From an uncultured Nitrospira sp. (GTDB lineage Bacteria; Nitrospirota; Nitrospiria; Nitrospirales; Nitrospiraceae), in contig CABVRZ010000002.1 of NCBI GenBank assembly GCA_902500775.1, positions 62,001 through 126,000 on the forward strand: a stretch of 64,000 nucleotides of DNA, written 5' to 3'. The position numbers were made by a program, and so were the translations under genes. How positions within the stretch are numbered: the first letter of the stretch is position 1; every line of letters begins with the position of its first letter. Positions 27,933-37,811 of the stretch are shown one piece after another. The notes under the pieces were generated by a model. That model was not told the DNA's origin. It ran no database searches and saw only the letters and a list, made by a program, of their open reading frames with translations.

Positions 27933-29324
27933 CTAATACAGATAGCGAATACTAAATGTGCCTAAATGCACGAAAGCATGATATGTTCCGTTCACGATCG
28001 GATTCAGGTTATCCACAATTGTTCGGGATTCATAAAACCATTCCTGATAGGCCAGGTCGAACCCAATCCCTTTGGGCCATAAAACCGACTCCCTCGCACA
28101 GGGAATCAGGCCAAAAAGTCGCCCGGCTCCCTTGCAGAGAAAACCCACTCCAAGCGAGAGTGTATGGGCTGGCAACGAAATAATTCCAGGATTGAACGTC
28201 CGATCAGGAACAGGATCTCCCGTGTAGGTATACCCGGCCCGCGCGGCAACCTCCCAATGTGACAGCCCCTGCGGACTCAGCCATTTATATTCTGTTCCCA
28301 CTGCGATGACCGGAACATTCTTCCACTGTTGCGGCTGAGGGATCATTGCGCCATTCGACAATCGGACATCGAGATTTCTATTCGAACTCCATCCGACATA
28401 CTCGAGGTCGAGCTCCACTTTCCATTCGTTCTCTCGAGTCCGCACAGGCCATAGGGCTATGGCTCCCTTGAATCTTTGTGGCAACACAAGGTCGGTGGAG
28501 GCATCTGCGATTTTGGCTCCGTTGACCAACAACACCCCGTCCAGCGGTACAACGGCCTGACTGCGATAAACAACACCAAATGAAACGATCGGTTTACCAG
28601 CATTATTCTTGACCGGGGCATAGAGCATACTTACCGTCACACCTGCGCCTGTTCCAGCCCCGTTCAGCTCGATGAAGCCTCCTGCAGGTATTCCAGCGAG
28701 TCCTCCACTGACTTGTTGCTGCTCGACATGCCCCTCACCAAGGAAACTAGCAAACGTGTAGACATTTGCGGCCACTCCCACTGAAAGGCTGTCGCTGATC
28801 TTGTACGCGAGTGTCGGCATGATGTTGATCAGCGGCAGCTCCGCCGAAGTCACAGCGGTCTTCAAGGGGCCATCGAGGGGATACCGTGTCCGTAGACCGA
28901 ATGGTGAGGTCAAACCCAAACCAACCGTGACTGCGGAGAACTGACGCAGACCAAGGGATCCGAGGTTCGCACTCAGATAGCTGTGGCCGGGAGGAGGGAA
29001 GCTGACACTGCCACCATAATCTCCACGTGTATCCAGCCCTTCCGACGTTTTTGCCTTAATGGAGCCACCCAATAAGGCCAAACCAAAGACCGCTTGTATA
29101 TGAGGTACTTGGGTCAGTCCCGCAGGATTATAATGGATGGCAGACGCATCGTTGGCTTGAGCTGTGAATGCATTCCCCTGACCTGCGGCAGCTGCTCCCT
29201 GTGGTTGAAACCGTAGGGCTTGTGCCTTCGTGATGACTGGAAAGAGAAGCAAAATTCCGCCCATGAAACATCCTGCTGCCAACGTGGCAGAGGTGGGGAA
29301 ATTAGCTAGAGTAGCCCCCCACAT
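27933..29324 (-). CDS. Outer-membrane protein, OmpP1/FadL/TodX family
   Basis: The 463-aa product has a signal peptide (cleavage probably after ...ITKAQA). The FadL N-terminal hatch signature is present: GAAAAGQGNAFTAQANDASA, followed by IHYNPAGLTQ. Many amphipathic strands and a terminal aromatic (IRYLY) follow, as expected for a beta-barrel that takes up hydrophobic compounds. It lies convergent to uvrC and divergent from luxR, with a shared 176-bp upstream region that holds a palindrome at 29401-29422. Whether the barrel is quorum-regulated or carries acyl-homoserine lactone is unknown. Confidence 0.9.
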   Translation of the reverse strand: MWGATLANFPTSATLAAGCFMGGILLLFPVITKAQALRFQPQGAAAAGQGNAFTAQANDASAIHYNPAGLTQVPHIQAVFGLALLGGSIKAKTSEGLDTRGDYGGSVSFPPPGHSYLSANLGSLGLRQFSAVTVGLGLTSPFGLRTRYPLDGPLKTAVTSAELPLINIMPTLAYKISDSLSVGVAANVYTFASFLGEGHVEQQQVSGGLAGIPAGGFIELNGAGTGAGVTVSMLYAPVKNNAGKPIVSFGVVYRSQAVVPLDGVLLVNGAKIADASTDLVLPQRFKGAIALWPVRTRENEWKVELDLEYVGWSSNRNLDVRLSNGAMIPQPQQWKNVPVIAVGTEYKWLSPQGLSHWEVAARAGYTYTGDPVPDRTFNPGIISLPAHTLSLGVGFLCKGAGRLFGLIPCARESVLWPKGIGFDLAYQEWFYESRTIVDNLNPIVNGTYHAFVHLGTFSIRYLY

Positions 29325-29461: not shown

Positions 29462-29500
29462 TACTGGCCATTCTGTTATCGTCTCAATATGGAGGCATCC

Positions 29501-30301
29501 ATGGGACAGGCTGAAGGAAAGCGTCCATTCCCTCATCAAATCTTCGAACAGCTTTCAAAATCGGAATGTGCTTCTTTTATCGAGGCTCTTCATTACATCA
29601 CCGAATCGAGCACGACGGCTGACGTCAAAGAGGCGCTCGTGCGCTTTCAAAATCTGTTTCATTTTTCACGAGTCATTGGCGGTCTTGCACGCCTGACACC
29701 AGGGGGAACTTTTGACGGGTTTACCAATGTCGTCAATGTGAGCTATCCAGATGAATGGATTAAGCTCTACTGGCAAAACGGCTACTTTGAGGTTGACCCA
29801 GTTTTCCAGACCGCCCTGAATAAAGCAGGAACCCAACACTGGGGAACGACATATCGTGAGGCAACCTCTCCGAAACAACTGGAATTTATGGCTGCAGCCA
29901 AGGAATTTGGACTTGGAGATGGAATTACTACAGGATCCTCCGATCCAGCTTGTCGAGTCGCAACATTCTGTTCCTTTGCCTCAGCCGACAGGGTGGACGC
30001 CGCACGGTATGTCCCTCTCATCGAGTATTTTGGGTACTATGTCCATTTAGCGCTCCTCCGAACTGCACCCCCGAAGGCCCAGTCCATGGACCGCTGTGTC
30101 AAGAAGTTAACGCTGCGGGAGTTAACAATCCTGAACTGGGTCAAAAATGGTAAGACCAACTGGGAAATCGCCCAGATTATGGGAGTGACTGAACGCACAA
30201 TCAGGTTCCACGTTGAAAGCATTTTTTCTAAGCTGGATGTCACCTCACGATCTCAGGCCGTTGCCACAGCCATTGAACATGGGTTACCCAATGTCGTCTA
30301 A
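29501..30301 (+). CDS. LuxR-family quorum-sensing transcription factor
   Basis: The 266-aa product has an N-terminal autoinducer-binding domain and a C-terminal LuxR helix-turn-helix (KLTLRELTILNWVKNGKTNW...TERTIRFHVESIFSKLDV). In the first domain Trp, Tyr, Asp-Pro and Trp (in YPDEWIKLYW, EVDPVF, HWGT) have the same spacing as W57, Y61, D70-P71 and W85 of LuxR, so acyl-homoserine lactone binding is likely. The ATG at 29501 is supported by GGAGG 5 nt upstream; an earlier ATG at 29489 overlaps that site. It is convergent with the luxI-type gene, 42 bp away. A weak hairpin (GTGAG/CTCAC) lies in the gap. Confidence 0.93.
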   Translation: MGQAEGKRPFPHQIFEQLSKSECASFIEALHYITESSTTADVKEALVRFQNLFHFSRVIGGLARLTPGGTFDGFTNVVNVSYPDEWIKLYWQNGYFEVDPVFQTALNKAGTQHWGTTYREATSPKQLEFMAAAKEFGLGDGITTGSSDPACRVATFCSFASADRVDAARYVPLIEYFGYYVHLALLRTAPPKAQSMDRCVKKLTLRELTILNWVKNGKTNWEIAQIMGVTERTIRFHVESIFSKLDVTSRSQAVATAIEHGLPNVV

Positions 30302-30343
30302 ATTGTGAGGCCGTTCTCACTGCGATTTCACCATCCCAACACC

Positions 30344-31066
30344 TCACGCCATGGCGAGTGATGTCGTCTTCTTCTCATAAGACGATGTCCGACCCGATAC
30401 CACTTCACCAGTGAGTGTCGTAATCACCGATATCCATTCAAGGAAGCTCGGTCGCTTTTCTGAGTTTTCGGCGTCAAATTGAACCATATCGTAGAGTGCC
30501 GCAACTGCCGCCGCTCCCGCAGGTGGCAGTTGCACCACAGGACCAATCGGCTCACACGGAAATCCCAGCATGCGCAGCGCTCGTAAGAATCGGTGTTCGA
30601 CTTCAAGGTAGTAGTAGCGAATCTGGTTCTCAACCGCCCACTGATAGATTCCCTTCAACACGCTTAGCATCACTCGACTCGAAAGCTTTGGATCTTTGAT
30701 ATCGGGATTTACGGTAAGCCGTGTGATCTCCGCCGTATCGTGCTCTCGTCTGATCACGTAGTCGCTCGGTAGTAATGCCCCAAACTCATTTCCCAACATA
30801 AATTCTCCGGAGGGGGGCAAAAGGCGCGCCATTCCAAGCAACACCCCATCCACGGCAAAAACTCCAACTGTCACTCCCCAGAGATCATACATATCCATTT
30901 CCAGGCGATCTTCACTTTTGGGTACCCACTTCAGCTGTTCCGCAAAAACGCGATGTCGGAGCTCGTAGGCCTGCGTTAGTTCCTCCTTGGTCTCAAGGGT
31001 CTTGATAAAGAAATCCTCTTCACAGAAATGAACATGCCTCACCGCATGATCGGTTAGGACTGACAT
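30344..31066 (-). CDS. Acyl-homoserine-lactone synthase, LuxI family
   Basis: The 240-aa product makes acyl-homoserine lactones from S-adenosylmethionine and acyl donors. All key residues of the family are present: Arg37, Phe41 and Trp47 (YELRHRVFAEQLKWVP), Glu56, Asp58 and Asp61 (EMDMYD), Arg81 (GMARLLP), Glu113 and Arg116 (AEITRLTV). It is about 30 residues longer than LuxI of Vibrio, with a C-terminal extension. AAGGAGG-like sequence (GAGGAGG) is 6 nt before the ATG at 31066. A lux box lies 93 bp upstream. AHL production has been reported for Nitrospira moscoviensis; the acyl chain made here cannot be read from sequence. Confidence 0.95.
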   Translation of the reverse strand: MSVLTDHAVRHVHFCEEDFFIKTLETKEELTQAYELRHRVFAEQLKWVPKSEDRLEMDMYDLWGVTVGVFAVDGVLLGMARLLPPSGEFMLGNEFGALLPSDYVIRREHDTAEITRLTVNPDIKDPKLSSRVMLSVLKGIYQWAVENQIRYYYLEVEHRFLRALRMLGFPCEPIGPVVQLPPAGAAAVAALYDMVQFDAENSEKRPSFLEWISVITTLTGEVVSGRTSSYEKKTTSLAMA

Positions 31067-31158
31067 AATAGCCTCCTCTCAGGCTTGGCTTTTTATGAAA
31101 ATTGGGGCCGAACGTTTATCGAAGGATGCGGATGGTTCCATCTACTGCAGCAAACGTC

Positions 31159-31178
31159 ACCTGGCGGACCCGCCAGGT
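31159..31178. promoter_or_regulatory. Candidate lux box between luxI and the divergent kinase gene
   Basis: ACCTGGCGGACCCGCCAGGT is a 20-bp perfect dyad with a 2-nt spacer (10-bp arms if one flanking base is added on each side, 31158-31179). It has the ACCTG...CAGGT half-sites and exact 20-bp length of the Vibrio fischeri lux box. It lies 93 bp before the luxI start on one strand and 103 bp before the kinase start on the other, so it may control both. Confidence 0.75.
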
Positions 31179-31280
31179 GCTTTTCTTGACTTGACGGCGT
31201 AAATAGTGGAGCCGTTAGTGCGATGTTTTCTGTGAACAGACCAGTCGGATAGGGAATTGAGCTACAAAGGAGGATGTATC

Positions 31281-32087
31281 GTGACAGAAGGCAGAGCTAG
31301 GCTTCAGCTATTGGAAGGTGGGTTCCGGTCAACCTCAACATTCTCTGTTGCTCCGTCTGTGAAAACCTCGATACAGTCCTTTGGTTTTCAGCAGTTAGAG
31401 CCCTGTTCAGGAGAGTTGACAACAGCCTTCAAAGCAACCCAGCAGCGCTTACACAAGCTATTGGAAGATCGTTCGCGTATCGGTCGTGATTTGCATGACT
31501 CTGTGCTGCAATCCCTCTATGCCATCGGCCTTAGCCTTGAAACTTCATCGCGAATCAGGCATGCTTACAATGATAAGGAATGCAGATCATTTGATATGAG
31601 AACTATATTGCAGATCAATCAATTGATCCATGAGGTTCGAGGAATGATCCGCGAATTAGAATCCGGTATGGTGCAGGAATTTGATCTCTCCTCTGAGCTC
31701 AACACCTTGCGTACGACCTATGGGCAAACGGGACGGCTGAACGTGAAGCTAGATATCCAACGAAACGCTATTGAGGTGCTGACGCACGAAGAAGAACGGG
31801 AGATCCTGAATATCGTACGGGAAGCGCTCAGCAACTGTGCCCGCCATGCCAGCGCAACTCAGGCGGTCGTGTCAATTCGTATGAGAGATGCGAGGATTCG
31901 GGTGAGCATCAGCGACAACGGCGTTGGGTTTTCACCGACGGGTGGACAACCACAGGGATATGGGCTTGCCAATATGGAGGCACGGGCTAAACGGCTCGGA
32001 GGGGCCTTGCGAGTCCTGGCCAAAGCGGGAGAGGGCACACAAGTCATTGTTGAATTTTCTTTGGAACCTGTACTGACATCTATATGA
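31281..32087 (+). CDS. Soluble NarL-type sensor histidine kinase (HisKA_3)
   Basis: The 268-aa product lacks transmembrane helices and a recognised sensory domain. The dimerisation/phosphoacceptor motif is RIGRDLHDSVLQSLYAIGL, with the His in DLHD. The ATPase has NIVREALSNCARHA (N box), SDNGVGFSP (G1) and GYGLANMEARAK (G2). GTG at 31281 has AAAGGAGG 7 nt upstream. It overlaps the response regulator by 4 nt. The lux box upstream suggests quorum control. It is paralogous to the end of the nine-PAS kinase at 32942-37135. Confidence 0.9.
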   Translation: MTEGRARLQLLEGGFRSTSTFSVAPSVKTSIQSFGFQQLEPCSGELTTAFKATQQRLHKLLEDRSRIGRDLHDSVLQSLYAIGLSLETSSRIRHAYNDKECRSFDMRTILQINQLIHEVRGMIRELESGMVQEFDLSSELNTLRTTYGQTGRLNVKLDIQRNAIEVLTHEEEREILNIVREALSNCARHASATQAVVSIRMRDARIRVSISDNGVGFSPTGGQPQGYGLANMEARAKRLGGALRVLAKAGEGTQVIVEFSLEPVLTSI

Positions 32088-32764
32088 AACCAACACAAAC
32101 CAGCATCGTACTTATCGATGATCATGAAATGGTCCGCCGAGGGCTCCGCGCCTTGCTTCACCTCGAAGCAGATCTGGTGATCTTGGGAGAGGCAGCCACC
32201 GTTGCCAGCGGTGTCAGCCTTGTCGAGCGACTGACGCCTCAGATGGTCCTGCTCGACGTCAAACTTCCCGATGCCACGGTCACCGAAGCCATCCGCCGTT
32301 TGCTGGCCGTTTCGCCAAAACTGCGAATTCTCATCCTCACCAGCTATGCTGAAGATACGACCGTCATGGCTGCTGTCCAAAATGGTGCCCATGGCTATGT
32401 ACTCAAAGACGTTCGCATGGATGACTTGATTCGGGCTATTCGTACCGTTGCCTCAGGTCAAGGCTATCTTGATCCTCGAGTAACACAGCAAGCGCTGCAT
32501 TGGATTCGGACCAGCTCACACCTGGGAGTCCCTTCACAAGGCGTCTCCCGTCTCTCCCCGCAAGAACGCTTGATCTTGCCGCTTCTTGCTGAAGGCAAAA
32601 CCAACAAGGAGATTGCTGTTCAACTACGGTTGAGCGACAAGACCATCAAGAACTATCTGGCGAATATTTTTGACAAGCTCCATGTGAAACGACGTACCGA
32701 AGCTGTGGCCTGGTTCATGAAAGAATCTCATATGCCTAGTGTGAGCCAAAGTCCGAAACTCTGA
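32084..32764 (+). CDS. NarL/FixJ-type response regulator
   Basis: The 226-aa product has a receiver with Asp12-Asp13 (LIDDHE), the phosphorylation site Asp58 (VLLDVKLPD) and Lys108 (YVLKDV), all intact. The LuxR-type helix-turn-helix is at about 160-220 (LSPQERLILPLLAEGKTNKE...SDKTIKNYLANIFDKLHV). It starts in the stop codon of the kinase at 31281, so the pair is a cognate two-component system. Target genes are unknown. Confidence 0.93.
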   Translation: MKPTQTSIVLIDDHEMVRRGLRALLHLEADLVILGEAATVASGVSLVERLTPQMVLLDVKLPDATVTEAIRRLLAVSPKLRILILTSYAEDTTVMAAVQNGAHGYVLKDVRMDDLIRAIRTVASGQGYLDPRVTQQALHWIRTSSHLGVPSQGVSRLSPQERLILPLLAEGKTNKEIAVQLRLSDKTIKNYLANIFDKLHVKRRTEAVAWFMKESHMPSVSQSPKL

Positions 32765-32941: not shown

Positions 32942-35900
32942 ATGAGTTCACCGCTGGAGACCGACCCATCAACAATCAGCGAGCTCACCCAACTGCGCCA
33001 CCAGATCCTTGAGCTGCAACAGGCGCTCGTTCATGCGAAACAAGACCATCATTCAACACAGACCACGGCGCTCGAGGCTGCCCAAGTAGGGACATGGGAG
33101 TGGGACAGCCGGACAAATCGGATGATATGGTCAGAGGAAACGGAACGGATCTTCGGCCTTACTCCCGGTACGTTTGATGACTCATATGAAGGATTCTTGG
33201 CTCTCGTACATCCGGATGACCGCCATTATCTCAGTGCAGCTATTACAAAGGCCGCTACTGATCACTCTCCTTACAGAATAGAACATCGCATCCTCACTTC
33301 TTCTGGAGCCACGCGATGGGTAGCCTGTCGTGGTCGTGCTACATGCAGTGAGAAGGAACCGACGTCGGGCGTGGTGGGCACGGTCGAAGATATCACTGTC
33401 CGTAAAAAAGTCGAACTGGCCCAGCGTGCTACCAGAGAAACCCTAGAAACACTTGTCCGAGAACGAACAGCCGGATTGGAACAGGCTGTCCATGAACTGA
33501 AGACTGAAATCGCGCGAAGACAACAGGCTGAATCGGCACTCAAGACAAGCGAGCAGCGCTACCAATTGCTGTATGAACAGAACCCGTTCATATATTTTAC
33601 GCTGCTCCCTGACGGGACCGTGGTATCCGTCAATCAGTTCGGGGCTGATCAGCTTGGCTACCGGGTAGAAGATCTGATCGGCCAATCCATTCTGAAGGTA
33701 TTCGGTTCGACCGAACACCGAATCGTATTGCGGCAGTTGGCCGCTTGCTCCGCGAATCTGTACACCGTCTTTCAGTGGGAGATTCAAAAAACCAGGCGGG
33801 ATGGGACTCGCCTGTGGGTCAAGGAGCACGCTCGGGCGGTTCACGACCACACCAACCAAATTCTTGTCCTTGTGACCTGTGAAGATATCACGGAGCGAAA
33901 GCGCACAGAAAAGCAGCTCCACGAGACGTCTCGCCTCCTCACAACACTCGTAGAAGAGTCCGCACTGCCGATTGTCAGCCTCGATCGCGAAGCGCGCGTG
34001 GTCAGCTGGAACCACGCTGCAACTCGTCTGTTCGGATGGTCCGCAGAAGAAGTGCTCGGACGTGAACTGCCATATGTTCAGCCGGAAGAAGAAGGCCACG
34101 CGGATGCCCTCTGGCAAGCAGGAACCCGCAGGGAGTTGACCGGTCCAATCGAACTACGGCGCCAGCACAAAGATGGAACGATGCTGAATCTTCTTCTCTG
34201 GCCTGTGTTCGTCTATGACGAGTTTGACCAGCTTTCCCTGGCTGTTGGTCTCTATGTAGATCAGTCTGAGCTCAAGCGGGCTGAGGAGGCTACACTGAGG
34301 GGCGAAACTCGACTTCGCTCGTTTTTGAACGCGCTGGACGACCTCGCCTTTGAGTTTGACCAGGATGGGCGATACCTCAATGTCTGGACCCACAGCGACG
34401 ACAAGCTTCTGGTACCCAAACAGGAACTCATCGGCCGACGCCTCCCCGACCTGTTTGGGGAAGAAGCGGGTTCCCACTATCTCGAAGCGATCCGCCAGGT
34501 GTTTACGACCGGTAAACCTGCGACGATTAATTATGCCGTTCAATTGCATCGTGTCATGCGTTATTTTTCTGGGGTCCTGACCTTGATTCCAGGGAGCCAA
34601 ACGTGTCCGGCGACTGTTGGCTGTCTCGTACGCGATATCACCGAGAGCCGCCTCATCGAGGCGCAGGTTCGAGAAAGCGAGACTCGATGGAGAGCGCTCT
34701 ATGAACATGCGGGGGTCGGCATTGCCCAACTGAACCTCGACGGACGATTTCTTCGAGTCAATCCGCACTTCTGCGAGCTGCTGGGCTACTCATCGGAAGC
34801 CATGCTCCAGCGAAGGTTTCAAGATCTCACGCACCCGGATGACCTCAAAACGAATCTGGTCTACCTCGACGAACTGCTCAAGGACAAGCGTCATTCCTTC
34901 TCCATGGAGAAACGGTATCGTAAAAGCAACGACACGTGGATGTGGGTTGATTTGACCGTATCGCTTGTCCATCGTGGCTCTTCCGATGAGGCCTATTTGA
35001 TAGCCATTGTCCAAAACATTGATGATCGCAAACAGGCGGAACAGGCCCTCCAAGAGCAAGAAGCACTGCTGCGATCCGTCATTGATACGGCACCCGACAT
35101 CATTTTCATGAAGGACCTAGACGGCCACTATCGATTTGTCAATTCGGCATTTGCGCAGACGCTCGGCACACTCCCCGAAGATATCATCGGAAAGACCGAT
35201 GCCGAACTTTTTCCTCCTGAAGTTGCTGATCGCTGGATAGCCGGAGATCGTGATGTTTTTTCCGGCGCGATCGAACGGGAATTTGAGGAAATTGTACCCA
35301 TTAAAGACACACCGCGCATCTTCCATCTGATCAAGACGCCGCACCGAGACCAGAACGGAAGCGTGATCGGGTTGGTCGGGGTTGCCCGCGACATGACCGA
35401 CCTGAAGCAAGCCGAACGAACCCGCCGGCTGACTCAGCTGGCCATTGATCGATCTGCAGACTTTGTATTCTGGGTCGATCGGTCAGCTCGTTTTCTCTAT
35501 GTCAATGACGCCGCCTGTAAACGACTTGGGTACTCTCATGACGAGTTGCTGCGAATGTCTGTGAGTGACATTGATACCGAGTACCAAGCGGAACGGTGGC
35601 CCGAACATTGGGCGGAATTAAGTCGGGCAGGGCGCCTCCGATTTGAATCGCGTCATCGCACCAAATCTGGTGAAACATACCCTGTGGAAATTGTTGCTAA
35701 TTTTATTGCCATCGAAGGGGAGGAGTACGACTTCGCCTTCGTTCGTGACATTTCTGATCGGAAACGATCGTACTCACTCCTGCAAGCTGCGATCAATTCA
35801 GTGGCCGATGGACTACTAGTCATTGACCGACAAGGGAAGGTCACCAGTACAAATCAGCGCTTCCTGCATCTCTGGAACATTCCCCAGACGCTCGCGGACG

Positions 35901-37135
35901 AGGGGGACGACGAAGCATTATTGAACTTTGTCGTGGATCAAACCGAGGAACCGGAGGAGTTTTTGCGCAAAGTCCATGAACTGTGTGCTCATCCGGCAAG
36001 GGAAAGTTTTGATGTCGTCCTTTTCAAGGATGGGCGAGTATTTGAGCGATATTCACGACCACAGGTCCTTGACAACAAAATTGTCGGGCGTGTCTGGAGT
36101 TTCCGGGATACCACGGAACACAAACGTGCCGAGCGGGCATTACGGGAGAGTGAATTAAGGCTTCAGCGGTTTGTGGCTGAAGCTCCGGTTGGACTCGGCA
36201 TCCTCGACGAAAACTGGCGAGTGATCAGTGCCAACCGAGCCTTGTGTGAGCTCACCGGGTATGACGAGCACGAAATGGTCGGAAGCACCTATGCCTTGTA
36301 CACACATCCGGAAGATCTTCCGGCGAATATCGCGTTGATGGACGAGTTTTTTCAGGGAGTTCGATCGAGCTATTCTTTCGAAAAACGCTATATCAGAAAG
36401 TCGGGTGACATCATCTGGGTCTTAGTCAAAGCCACGCGCATCGAACTGTCAGGCCACCAAGGGCCGCTCCTTCTCGCAGCGGTTCAAGATATTACCGAAC
36501 GTAAGCTGGCACTGGAAGAACGAGAGCAACTCAGTCGGGACCTTCACGATAACCTCTTGCAAGCCCTGTATGCAGTCGGACTGCAGCTCGAAGCTGGCAA
36601 GCTTGCAATGGGACGATCACTCCGCCGCTCAAAGACACATCTATCCCAAGCCATCCGTCAGCTGAACGGTCTCATGGTCGATGTTCGACGGTTTATTGCC
36701 CTCTTATCAGAACGTACTCCGGTCCAGATGGACTTCGGACAGTCACTTCGAGAACTGATTGACTCCACGGCAGACGCCGACTGCATCGCCGCGGAGCTGG
36801 ACATCACGAGCCCCGTTCTCTCCTTCATTACCCCTCAGATCGGAGGGCAGTTGTTGAATATTGTCCGCGAGGCCCTGAGCAATAGTTTGCGCCATGCGCG
36901 TGCCTCCCGCCGCTGGGTACATCTGAGTCTAGCCCATAACTCGATCCGGTTACTCATCGGGGACAATGGTATCGGCTTTTCTCCTGCGCGCAAGCGCCGC
37001 GCTGGCCGAGGGCTTGCGAATATGGCCGCTCGCGCTCAGCACATGACCGCCTCGTATACTCTCGAAAGTGTACCAGGACGTGGAACCACGATCACCGTCG
37101 ACGTGCCACTGAAAAAGGATGCCCTGTATGAGTAA
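32942..37135 (+). CDS. Nine-PAS-domain sensor histidine kinase (HisKA_3)
   Basis: The 1397-aa product contains nine PAS domains in tandem between about residues 50 and 1190. Most end in a PAC-type phrase (VEDITVRKK, CEDITERKR, VRDITESRL, VQNIDDRKQ, VARDMTDLK, VRDISDRKR, FRDTTEHKR, VQDITERKL). A coiled-coil lies at about 155-200. The kinase core has QLSRDLHDNLLQALYAVGL and the ATPase motifs NIVREALSNSLRHARA, GDNGIGFSP and GRGLANMAARA. No membrane segment is seen, so sensing should be cytoplasmic. It overlaps the downstream regulator gene by 8 nt. The core is similar to the smaller kinase at 31281. Confidence 0.93.
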   Translation: MSSPLETDPSTISELTQLRHQILELQQALVHAKQDHHSTQTTALEAAQVGTWEWDSRTNRMIWSEETERIFGLTPGTFDDSYEGFLALVHPDDRHYLSAAITKAATDHSPYRIEHRILTSSGATRWVACRGRATCSEKEPTSGVVGTVEDITVRKKVELAQRATRETLETLVRERTAGLEQAVHELKTEIARRQQAESALKTSEQRYQLLYEQNPFIYFTLLPDGTVVSVNQFGADQLGYRVEDLIGQSILKVFGSTEHRIVLRQLAACSANLYTVFQWEIQKTRRDGTRLWVKEHARAVHDHTNQILVLVTCEDITERKRTEKQLHETSRLLTTLVEESALPIVSLDREARVVSWNHAATRLFGWSAEEVLGRELPYVQPEEEGHADALWQAGTRRELTGPIELRRQHKDGTMLNLLLWPVFVYDEFDQLSLAVGLYVDQSELKRAEEATLRGETRLRSFLNALDDLAFEFDQDGRYLNVWTHSDDKLLVPKQELIGRRLPDLFGEEAGSHYLEAIRQVFTTGKPATINYAVQLHRVMRYFSGVLTLIPGSQTCPATVGCLVRDITESRLIEAQVRESETRWRALYEHAGVGIAQLNLDGRFLRVNPHFCELLGYSSEAMLQRRFQDLTHPDDLKTNLVYLDELLKDKRHSFSMEKRYRKSNDTWMWVDLTVSLVHRGSSDEAYLIAIVQNIDDRKQAEQALQEQEALLRSVIDTAPDIIFMKDLDGHYRFVNSAFAQTLGTLPEDIIGKTDAELFPPEVADRWIAGDRDVFSGAIEREFEEIVPIKDTPRIFHLIKTPHRDQNGSVIGLVGVARDMTDLKQAERTRRLTQLAIDRSADFVFWVDRSARFLYVNDAACKRLGYSHDELLRMSVSDIDTEYQAERWPEHWAELSRAGRLRFESRHRTKSGETYPVEIVANFIAIEGEEYDFAFVRDISDRKRSYSLLQAAINSVADGLLVIDRQGKVTSTNQRFLHLWNIPQTLADEGDDEALLNFVVDQTEEPEEFLRKVHELCAHPARESFDVVLFKDGRVFERYSRPQVLDNKIVGRVWSFRDTTEHKRAERALRESELRLQRFVAEAPVGLGILDENWRVISANRALCELTGYDEHEMVGSTYALYTHPEDLPANIALMDEFFQGVRSSYSFEKRYIRKSGDIIWVLVKATRIELSGHQGPLLLAAVQDITERKLALEEREQLSRDLHDNLLQALYAVGLQLEAGKLAMGRSLRRSKTHLSQAIRQLNGLMVDVRRFIALLSERTPVQMDFGQSLRELIDSTADADCIAAELDITSPVLSFITPQIGGQLLNIVREALSNSLRHARASRRWVHLSLAHNSIRLLIGDNGIGFSPARKRRAGRGLANMAARAQHMTASYTLESVPGRGTTITVDVPLKKDALYE

Positions 37136-37811
37136 GTCACCAACGATTCGACTCGTCATCGTCGATGACCACGAAGTCGTACGGATCGGGCTCTGTGCCG
37201 TCCTTGCCCTCACACCTGGGTTTAAGGTCATCGGTGAGGGGAAACGGATGGCAGAGGCCAAGAAGCTTTGCTTTCGCCTGAAGCCAGATCTCGTCTTGCT
37301 TGATATCCGATTACCGGATGGAAGCGGTGTGGAGGCGGCCCGCGACATTCTTGCTCGATGTCCGAACACCCGGGTCTTGTTCCTCACGAGCTTTGCTGAC
37401 GACCATACGGTGGCCGAAGCAGTTCTCGCCGGCGCTCATGGGTATCTTCTCAAAGACATCGCTTCCCAGACTCTTGTGCGTGCGATTCGAACGGTTGCCG
37501 CTGGACAGACACTTATGGACCCTCGCTTGGCCCAACACACGTTGAACTGGTTGAGGCAGGTCCCCACCGAGCCAGGGCCATCCAAGCGCTCCTTCCTCTC
37601 ACCCCAGGAACAGCGCCTCCTTCCTTTGGTTACCAAAGGCCTTACGAACAAAGAAATCGCTCATTGTTTGCGACTCAGCGAAAAAACCGTCAAGAATTAC
37701 CTCGCCAATATCTACACCAAACTCAATATCGGCCGCCGCTCACAGATCGCTGCCTTCTATGCCGGCAGCTTCAAAGGTTCGAGTACCCGCCTACCTTCAG
37801 GACGCAGCTAA
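37128..37811 (+). CDS. NarL/FixJ-type response regulator
   Basis: The 227-aa product has an intact receiver (IVDDHE, Asp59 in LVLLDIRLPD, Lys109 in YLLKD) and a LuxR-type helix-turn-helix (LSPQEQRLLPLVTKGLTNKE...SEKTVKNYLANIYTKLNI). The ATG at 37128 overlaps the end of the nine-PAS kinase, which is its likely partner. It closely resembles the regulator at 32084, so the two systems appear to be a tandem duplication with a much larger sensor in the second. Confidence 0.93.
   Translation: MSKSPTIRLVIVDDHEVVRIGLCAVLALTPGFKVIGEGKRMAEAKKLCFRLKPDLVLLDIRLPDGSGVEAARDILARCPNTRVLFLTSFADDHTVAEAVLAGAHGYLLKDIASQTLVRAIRTVAAGQTLMDPRLAQHTLNWLRQVPTEPGPSKRSFLSPQEQRLLPLVTKGLTNKEIAHCLRLSEKTVKNYLANIYTKLNIGRRSQIAAFYAGSFKGSSTRLPSGRS

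Follow-up and report, generated by a model that had tools for sequence, protein, structure and literature searches.

A probable comammox Nitrospira quorum-sensing circuit with a lux box shared by luxI and a two-component operon, and with sequence signs of luxR-luxI cassette exchange

A luxR gene, a luxI gene and a candidate lux box lie together in the window analyzed here, a 64,000-nucleotide stretch of a contig from an uncultured Nitrospira sp. The locus raises the question of whether these elements form a working AHL circuit, what such a circuit would control and how it relates to its counterparts in other Nitrospira. The reading that we favor, with a probability of about 0.87, is that of a single, complete AHL circuit in a comammox organism, in which luxI would be autoinduced, a divergent histidine kinase-response regulator (HK-RR) operon would be activated from the same site and the luxR-luxI segment would be an exchangeable cassette lying between a FadL gene and the box.

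Both genes are intact and are arranged convergently, tail to tail, with 42 bp between them. The luxR gene (29501 to 30301, + strand) encodes a receptor of 266 aa; a longer open reading frame begins at 29489, but the start at 29501 is preferable because a GGAGG motif is present just 5′ of it and because the LuxR of several relatives is likewise 266 aa long. The Pfam cut-offs were exceeded by both the Autoind_bind domain (73 bits; cut-off, 23) and a C-terminal GerE domain (68 bits; cut-off, 23.5). The luxI gene (30344 to 31066, − strand) encodes a synthase of 240 aa with an Autoind_synth score of 44.4 bits against a cut-off of 24, and its nearest solved structure is LasI (E = 2e-7). A sequence-only reading of this DNA had described a complete LuxR/LuxI pair, a full set of synthase catalytic residues and an exact W-Y-DP-W spacing in the receptor, and all three descriptions were borne out. 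Residues W57, Y61, D70, P71, W85 and G113 (TraR numbering) were all found in the receptor and are invariant in 85 Nitrospira LuxRs, while the eight signature residues of the synthase (R37, F41, W47, D58, D61, R81, E113 and R116) were all found and are near-invariant in 90 relatives. Profile searches of the whole 4.5-Mb genome detected one Autoind_synth gene and one Autoind_bind gene, indicative of a single closed quorum-sensing circuit. As AHL production has been observed in relatives (PMC8553950, PMC5767232), the LuxI of the window would be expected to make an AHL as well; the identity of this AHL is a matter of inference and, with only 41 to 55% identity to most other Nitrospira LuxIs, is not deducible from theirs.

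The genome containing the window has a completeness of 99.7% and a contamination of 0.29%, and it carries an amoA gene (L179:3-842, at the edge of a 56-kb contig) that passes the NCBIfam cut-off for bacterial AmoA. This combination points to comammox Nitrospira, and the label of nitrite oxidizer given in the sequence-only reading is, hence, probably incomplete, with the proviso that the 56-kb contig may be a binning error. That reading was silent on amoA, on the convergence of luxR and luxI and on the divergent HK-RR operon facing the box. Its statement that quorum sensing is unusual in such organisms did not hold: LuxI of the window's kind was detected in 93 of the 175 genomes searched in the family, and published figures are 36% of Nitrospirales genomes for LuxI homologues and 67% of lineage II for quorum-sensing genes (PMC12342949).

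The lux box, ACCTGGCGGACCCGCCAGGT, occupies positions 31159 to 31178 (31158 to 31179 with full arms) and lies upstream of both luxI (by 92 bp) and the HK start (by 102 bp). The perfect 20-bp dyad previously claimed here is real and does lie upstream of luxI, but its perfect arms of 10 bp are at 31158 to 31167 and 31170 to 31179, and its AC center is nonpalindromic. Nowhere else in the 4.5-Mb genome was there a site with at most two mismatches; three sites with three mismatches were weak, and the one on contig C1 is inside an apparent coding sequence. A box with two or fewer mismatches was present at 90 of 92 luxI loci; of the two loci without it, one is at a contig end. At a threshold of one mismatch to the pattern, a box was found in 90 of 172 genomes of the family, namely, 86 of 92 with luxI versus 4 of 80 without it. 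Three of the six luxI genomes below this threshold carry a two-mismatch box adjoining luxI, two have a luxI that is fragmented or cut at a contig end, and the sixth (G066) has neither the box nor the adjacent HK-RR genes. The locus of this last genome (L086) has retained luxI and luxR, with luxI now abutting a multi-PAS kinase, and is a natural deletion of the output side. Among the luxI-less genomes, the box of G138 adjoins an HK gene close to the end of a contig, that of G050 is two mismatches off the consensus and similar to the site found in an apparent coding sequence of the window's genome, and a box with at most one mismatch to the pattern is also present in G140 and G142. An alignment of 108 boxes indicated essentially no variation in the outer CCTGGC and CAGG (ACCTGGC and GCCAGGT being nearly invariant), while the four central bases vary. 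The consensus dyad in relatives reaches past 20 bp, to approximately GTCACCTGGCG-N4-CGCCAGGTGAC, and is stronger on the luxI side (GACG). Conservation of the dyad at luxI in relatives, together with its uniqueness in the genome, is far beyond chance. One other genome (G008) has two additional near-consensus boxes far from luxI (L161:4854 and L162:5246), a possible larger regulon.

On its other side, the box faces the divergent HK-RR operon (31281 to 32764, + strand). The kinase has HisKA_3 and HATPase_c domains and is of 268 aa when read from a GTG at 31281 (31281 to 32087); a longer open reading frame starts from a TTG at 31257, and the ribosome-binding site and GTGAC at 31281 are conserved in aligned relatives. 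No sensor domain was found in the kinase with Pfam. The NarL-family response regulator (Response_reg and GerE; 32084 to 32764, + strand) overlaps the HK stop by 4 bp and exhibits 81 to 96% identity in many relatives. An HK or RR homologue was present within the next three box-side open reading frames at 83 of 92 luxI loci, with three of the nine exceptions being at contig ends; no GGDEF motif was detected among the box-side frames inspected at these loci. Further neighbors kept in relatives are a multi-PAS HisKA_3 histidine kinase of 1,397 aa (32942 to 37135, + strand) and a second NarL-family response regulator (37119 to 37811, + strand). A simple promoter scan did not detect a sigma-70 site, so that promoter positions come from the alignment alone. 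On the HK side, a putative −10 element, TAAATA (31200 to 31205, + strand), is located 21 nt past the box, and a TA at offsets 22 and 23 was observed in 64 to 67% of the 108 aligned boxes; a TA-rich element at this distance fits an activator overlapping the −35 position. On the luxI side, the alignment contained a conserved stretch 19 to 27 nt past the box but no recognizable −10 element.

How such a site may function is suggested by a box from a related Nitrospira clone, ACCTGGCGGTTCCGCCAGGT, which is located between nspI and a divergent gene and is unlike ACCTGGCGGACCCGCCAGGT in only two central bases (PMC8553950). With C8-HSL and NspR1, this box gave reporter inductions of 14-fold for nspI and 197-fold for the divergent gene, and NspR1 bound to it in an EMSA when RNA polymerase was added (PMC8553950). 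By analogy, the AHL-bound LuxR of the window would bind the box at 31159 to 31178, with RNA polymerase needed, and would activate luxI, generating the positive feedback that the sequence-only reading had proposed and that is well supported by this precedent. The same binding event would activate the HK-RR operon divergently, a step that we infer for this locus, and the HK-RR pair would then relay the signal to downstream genes. No second box of this quality was found in the genome, which makes the pair the likeliest relay, and quorum sensing may feed into a two-component system encoded next to it.

Two readings would deprive this circuit of its operator or of its signal. In one, the dyad at 31158 to 31179 is an intrinsic terminator on the + strand rather than an operator. 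The stem of 9 to 10 pairs, followed by CTTTTCTT, does attain a terminator-like score, with 7 G-C pairs and then a T-rich stretch, and it folds well as RNA (−17.8 kcal/mol; z, −3.2). No + strand gene ends at the dyad, however, and of 108 related boxes, a T tract accompanies only 18 toward the HK gene and 6 toward luxI. Moreover, the outer bases are kept as sequence, while the bases of inner pair 9-12 can pair in just 59 and those of inner pair 10-11 in just 45 of 108 boxes, a conservation pattern on which the terminator identity was rejected; a near-identical site has, in addition, already been proven to be an operator (PMC8553950). We consider the terminator reading extremely unlikely. Scarcely more probable is a synthase making some other N-acyl product and no AHL, either as an exosortase-associated acyltransferase or as an N-acyl amino acid synthase of the FeeM type. 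This possibility arises because the top NCBIfam match of LuxI is to the former family (TIGR03694, 60.7 bits), slightly above TraI (56.8 bits, under a cut-off of 292), and FeeM scores 35.9 bits. The TIGR03694 score is well under the cut-off of 111.95, so that an exosortase-acyltransferase identity was rejected, whereas the Autoind_synth score is above its own. The LuxI signature residues are in place, the partner LuxR has an intact AHL pocket and AHLs are made by the Nitrospira synthase NspI and, as judged from cultures, by NjpI (PMC8553950, PMC5767232).

The history of the locus was investigated by comparing LuxR and LuxI with the flanking proteins UvrC, FadL, HK, RR and UPF0114 in about 90 relatives. 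For identity to the window proteins, LuxI and LuxR co-varied (Spearman, 0.74), while correlations of these two proteins with the flanks were 0.11 to 0.30 as compared to 0.59 to 0.86 among the flanks. In full pairwise matrices, the Mantel r was 0.68 for LuxR and LuxI but −0.06 to 0.21 for the cassette versus the flanks; flank-flank values were mostly 0.6 to 0.86, with two lower values (0.36 and 0.46) coming from the small UPF0114 set. The LuxIs fell into groups of 40, 32 and 17 loci, named A, B and C by size and with the window in B, plus one singleton. There were 107 locus pairs with alike flanks and yet less than 55% LuxI identity. Between loci L038 and L146, for example, identities were 99% for UvrC, 94% for FadL, 91% for HK and 96% for RR but 42% for LuxR and 45% for LuxI. 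On the UvrC tree, the LuxI groups need at least 22 changes (minimum possible, 2), as compared to 2 on the LuxI tree and 3 on the LuxR tree; for one group alone, around ten changes on the UvrC tree are imposed by branches with strong support. AU tests rejected both a seven-member UvrC clade imposed on the LuxI data (P = 1.4e-44) and the 17-locus LuxI group as a single UvrC clade (P = 2e-5); as these groupings were picked after seeing the data, the P values have nominal meaning only, but the size of the effect is very large.

Edges of the replaced segment could be located by aligning individual loci. Between L039 and L149, an identity of 93% stops approximately 100 bp into FadL from its 5′ end (27933 to 29324, − strand, in the window; a FadL/TodX outer-membrane protein by domain match, forming the left edge of the exchanged cassette), and an identity of 92% returns a few bases short of the box. 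L038 and L146 share this left edge, but their identity on the right returns within the 5′ part of luxI and not at the box. For L121 and L147, the box itself is marked by a 29-bp perfect block, and a deletion in FadL hides the break on that side. A faster evolution of LuxI and LuxR, without any exchange, could be invoked for the conflict with their neighbors, as LuxI is generally less conserved than RR or UvrC. Such an acceleration would reduce identity but leave the topology unchanged, whereas flank sisters with 96 to 99% UvrC identity hold LuxIs of different groups and alike LuxIs sit in more-distant flanks; the AU result for the seven-member clade and the sharp drop in identity at the cassette edges also speak against it, making this explanation exceedingly improbable. 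Chimeric assembly is unlikely as a general cause of the mixed loci since many of them are on contigs of hundreds of kilobases. A plasmid origin of the cassette was discarded, as none of 72,556 plasmids contained a match to the luxR-luxI pair. These comparisons demonstrate, at the level of sequence, that luxR and luxI have been swapped in place as a unit, repeatedly and across Nitrospira: the segment from FadL to the box has been replaced by diverged allele groups while the box and HK-RR were retained. Four loci (L043, L046, L047 and L048) combine a LuxI of the window's group with a LuxR that is only about 51% identical to that of the window and are possible luxI/luxR recombinants; one extra change is needed on the LuxR tree.

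Between groups, the AHL-binding domain of LuxR exhibits 40 to 56% identity versus 68 to 77% for the DNA-binding domain, and the lux boxes are alike in all three LuxI groups, as would be expected of different signals acting through a common operator. The allele groups may use different signals. The AHLs published for the genus do differ (C8 and C12). Diverged synthase-receptor cassettes exchanged at one locus, the mark of a pherotype system, were found here. We give an even chance to the fuller proposal of an AHL pherotype system in which homologous recombination swaps luxR-luxI cassettes of differing signal specificity into a single chromosomal slot bounded at or near the invariant lux box, with all of them plugged into the resident HK-RR pair. 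Within this proposal, the swap was read from the alignments and trees, whereas the different specificities and the HK-RR relay are proposed. The genes, residues, box, layout and in-place exchange were, likewise, established by sequence comparison, and AHL-dependent activation of and binding to the window box would be as seen elsewhere for the near-identical box.

Five luxI-less relatives (G075, G120, G071, G103 and G091) have kept HK-RR and a degenerate box, e.g., CCCTGGCGCATGCGCCAGGT. In four of these, a called open reading frame adjoining the box encodes a protein of 180 to 184 aa, which retains the LuxR DNA-binding domain (∼61 to 70% identity over 60 to 74 aa) and is missing the AHL-binding domain; in G071, a similar sequence is visible in the DNA. 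At these loci (L173, L174, L175, L176 and L177, ∼5 to 6 kb in), the receptor has apparently come to be used at the same site independently of AHL. Genes next to it encode another LuxR-like protein, which matches Autoind_bind weakly, a conserved protein of ∼440 aa without a Pfam match, which is absent from the window's genome, and a ketoacyl synthase, with a P450 also present in at least one locus. Clusters with a beta-ketoacyl synthase and sometimes a P450 were located at L173:211-5238, L175:1560-5325 and L151:6966-9793; a cluster of this type adjoining the quorum-sensing locus possibly makes another signal or a secondary metabolite.

If cassette exchange is real, nitrifiers that share a reactor or soil may fail to perceive one another's AHLs even when their genomes are almost identical, and such deafness would bear on every attempt at steering nitrification with added AHLs or quenchers. 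The locus would also lend itself to work on the evolution of AHL specificity, as the receptor-synthase pairs vary naturally while operator and output stay constant, and the conserved HK-RR operon is a tangible candidate for the output through which Nitrospira quorum sensing acts.

The gene pair itself is a further member of a known Nitrospira system. As in the window, NspI/NspR1 is one cognate LuxI/LuxR pair with an AHL-autoinduced luxI and a box common to luxI and a divergent gene, differing from that of the window in the two central bases (PMC8553950); that divergent gene is described as GGDEF/EAL (PMC8553950), in contrast to the HK-RR pair in the window and most relatives. The AHLs measured for N. 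japonica are C10 to C14, with C12 dominant (PMC5767232), and a C8 AHL is reported for N. moscoviensis in PMC8553950; the synthases of these two species, including NjpI (PMC5767232, and Mellbye 2017 as cited there), belong to the same genus-wide family as the LuxI of the window. Outside the genus, the nearest solved structure to the window LuxR is CviR of Chromobacterium (E = 8e-31, with a nearly full-length alignment), although the similarity is moderate and the species, synthase and targets are not alike. No earlier report of AHL pherotype exchange was found in the literature searched, which was mostly without subscription journals, and, as far as this literature extends, cassette exchange at a fixed, operator-bounded slot is undescribed for AHL systems. 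Diverged versions of a signaling module at one locus are likewise present in the comQXPA pherotypes of Bacillus (PMC4008528), a peptide system as opposed to the AHL synthase-receptor cassette of the window, and in ExpI quorum-sensing classes I and II of Pectobacterium (PMC6934387), where the two clades occur within one subspecies, whereas the Nitrospira cassette has been exchanged across many species with the operator remaining constant.
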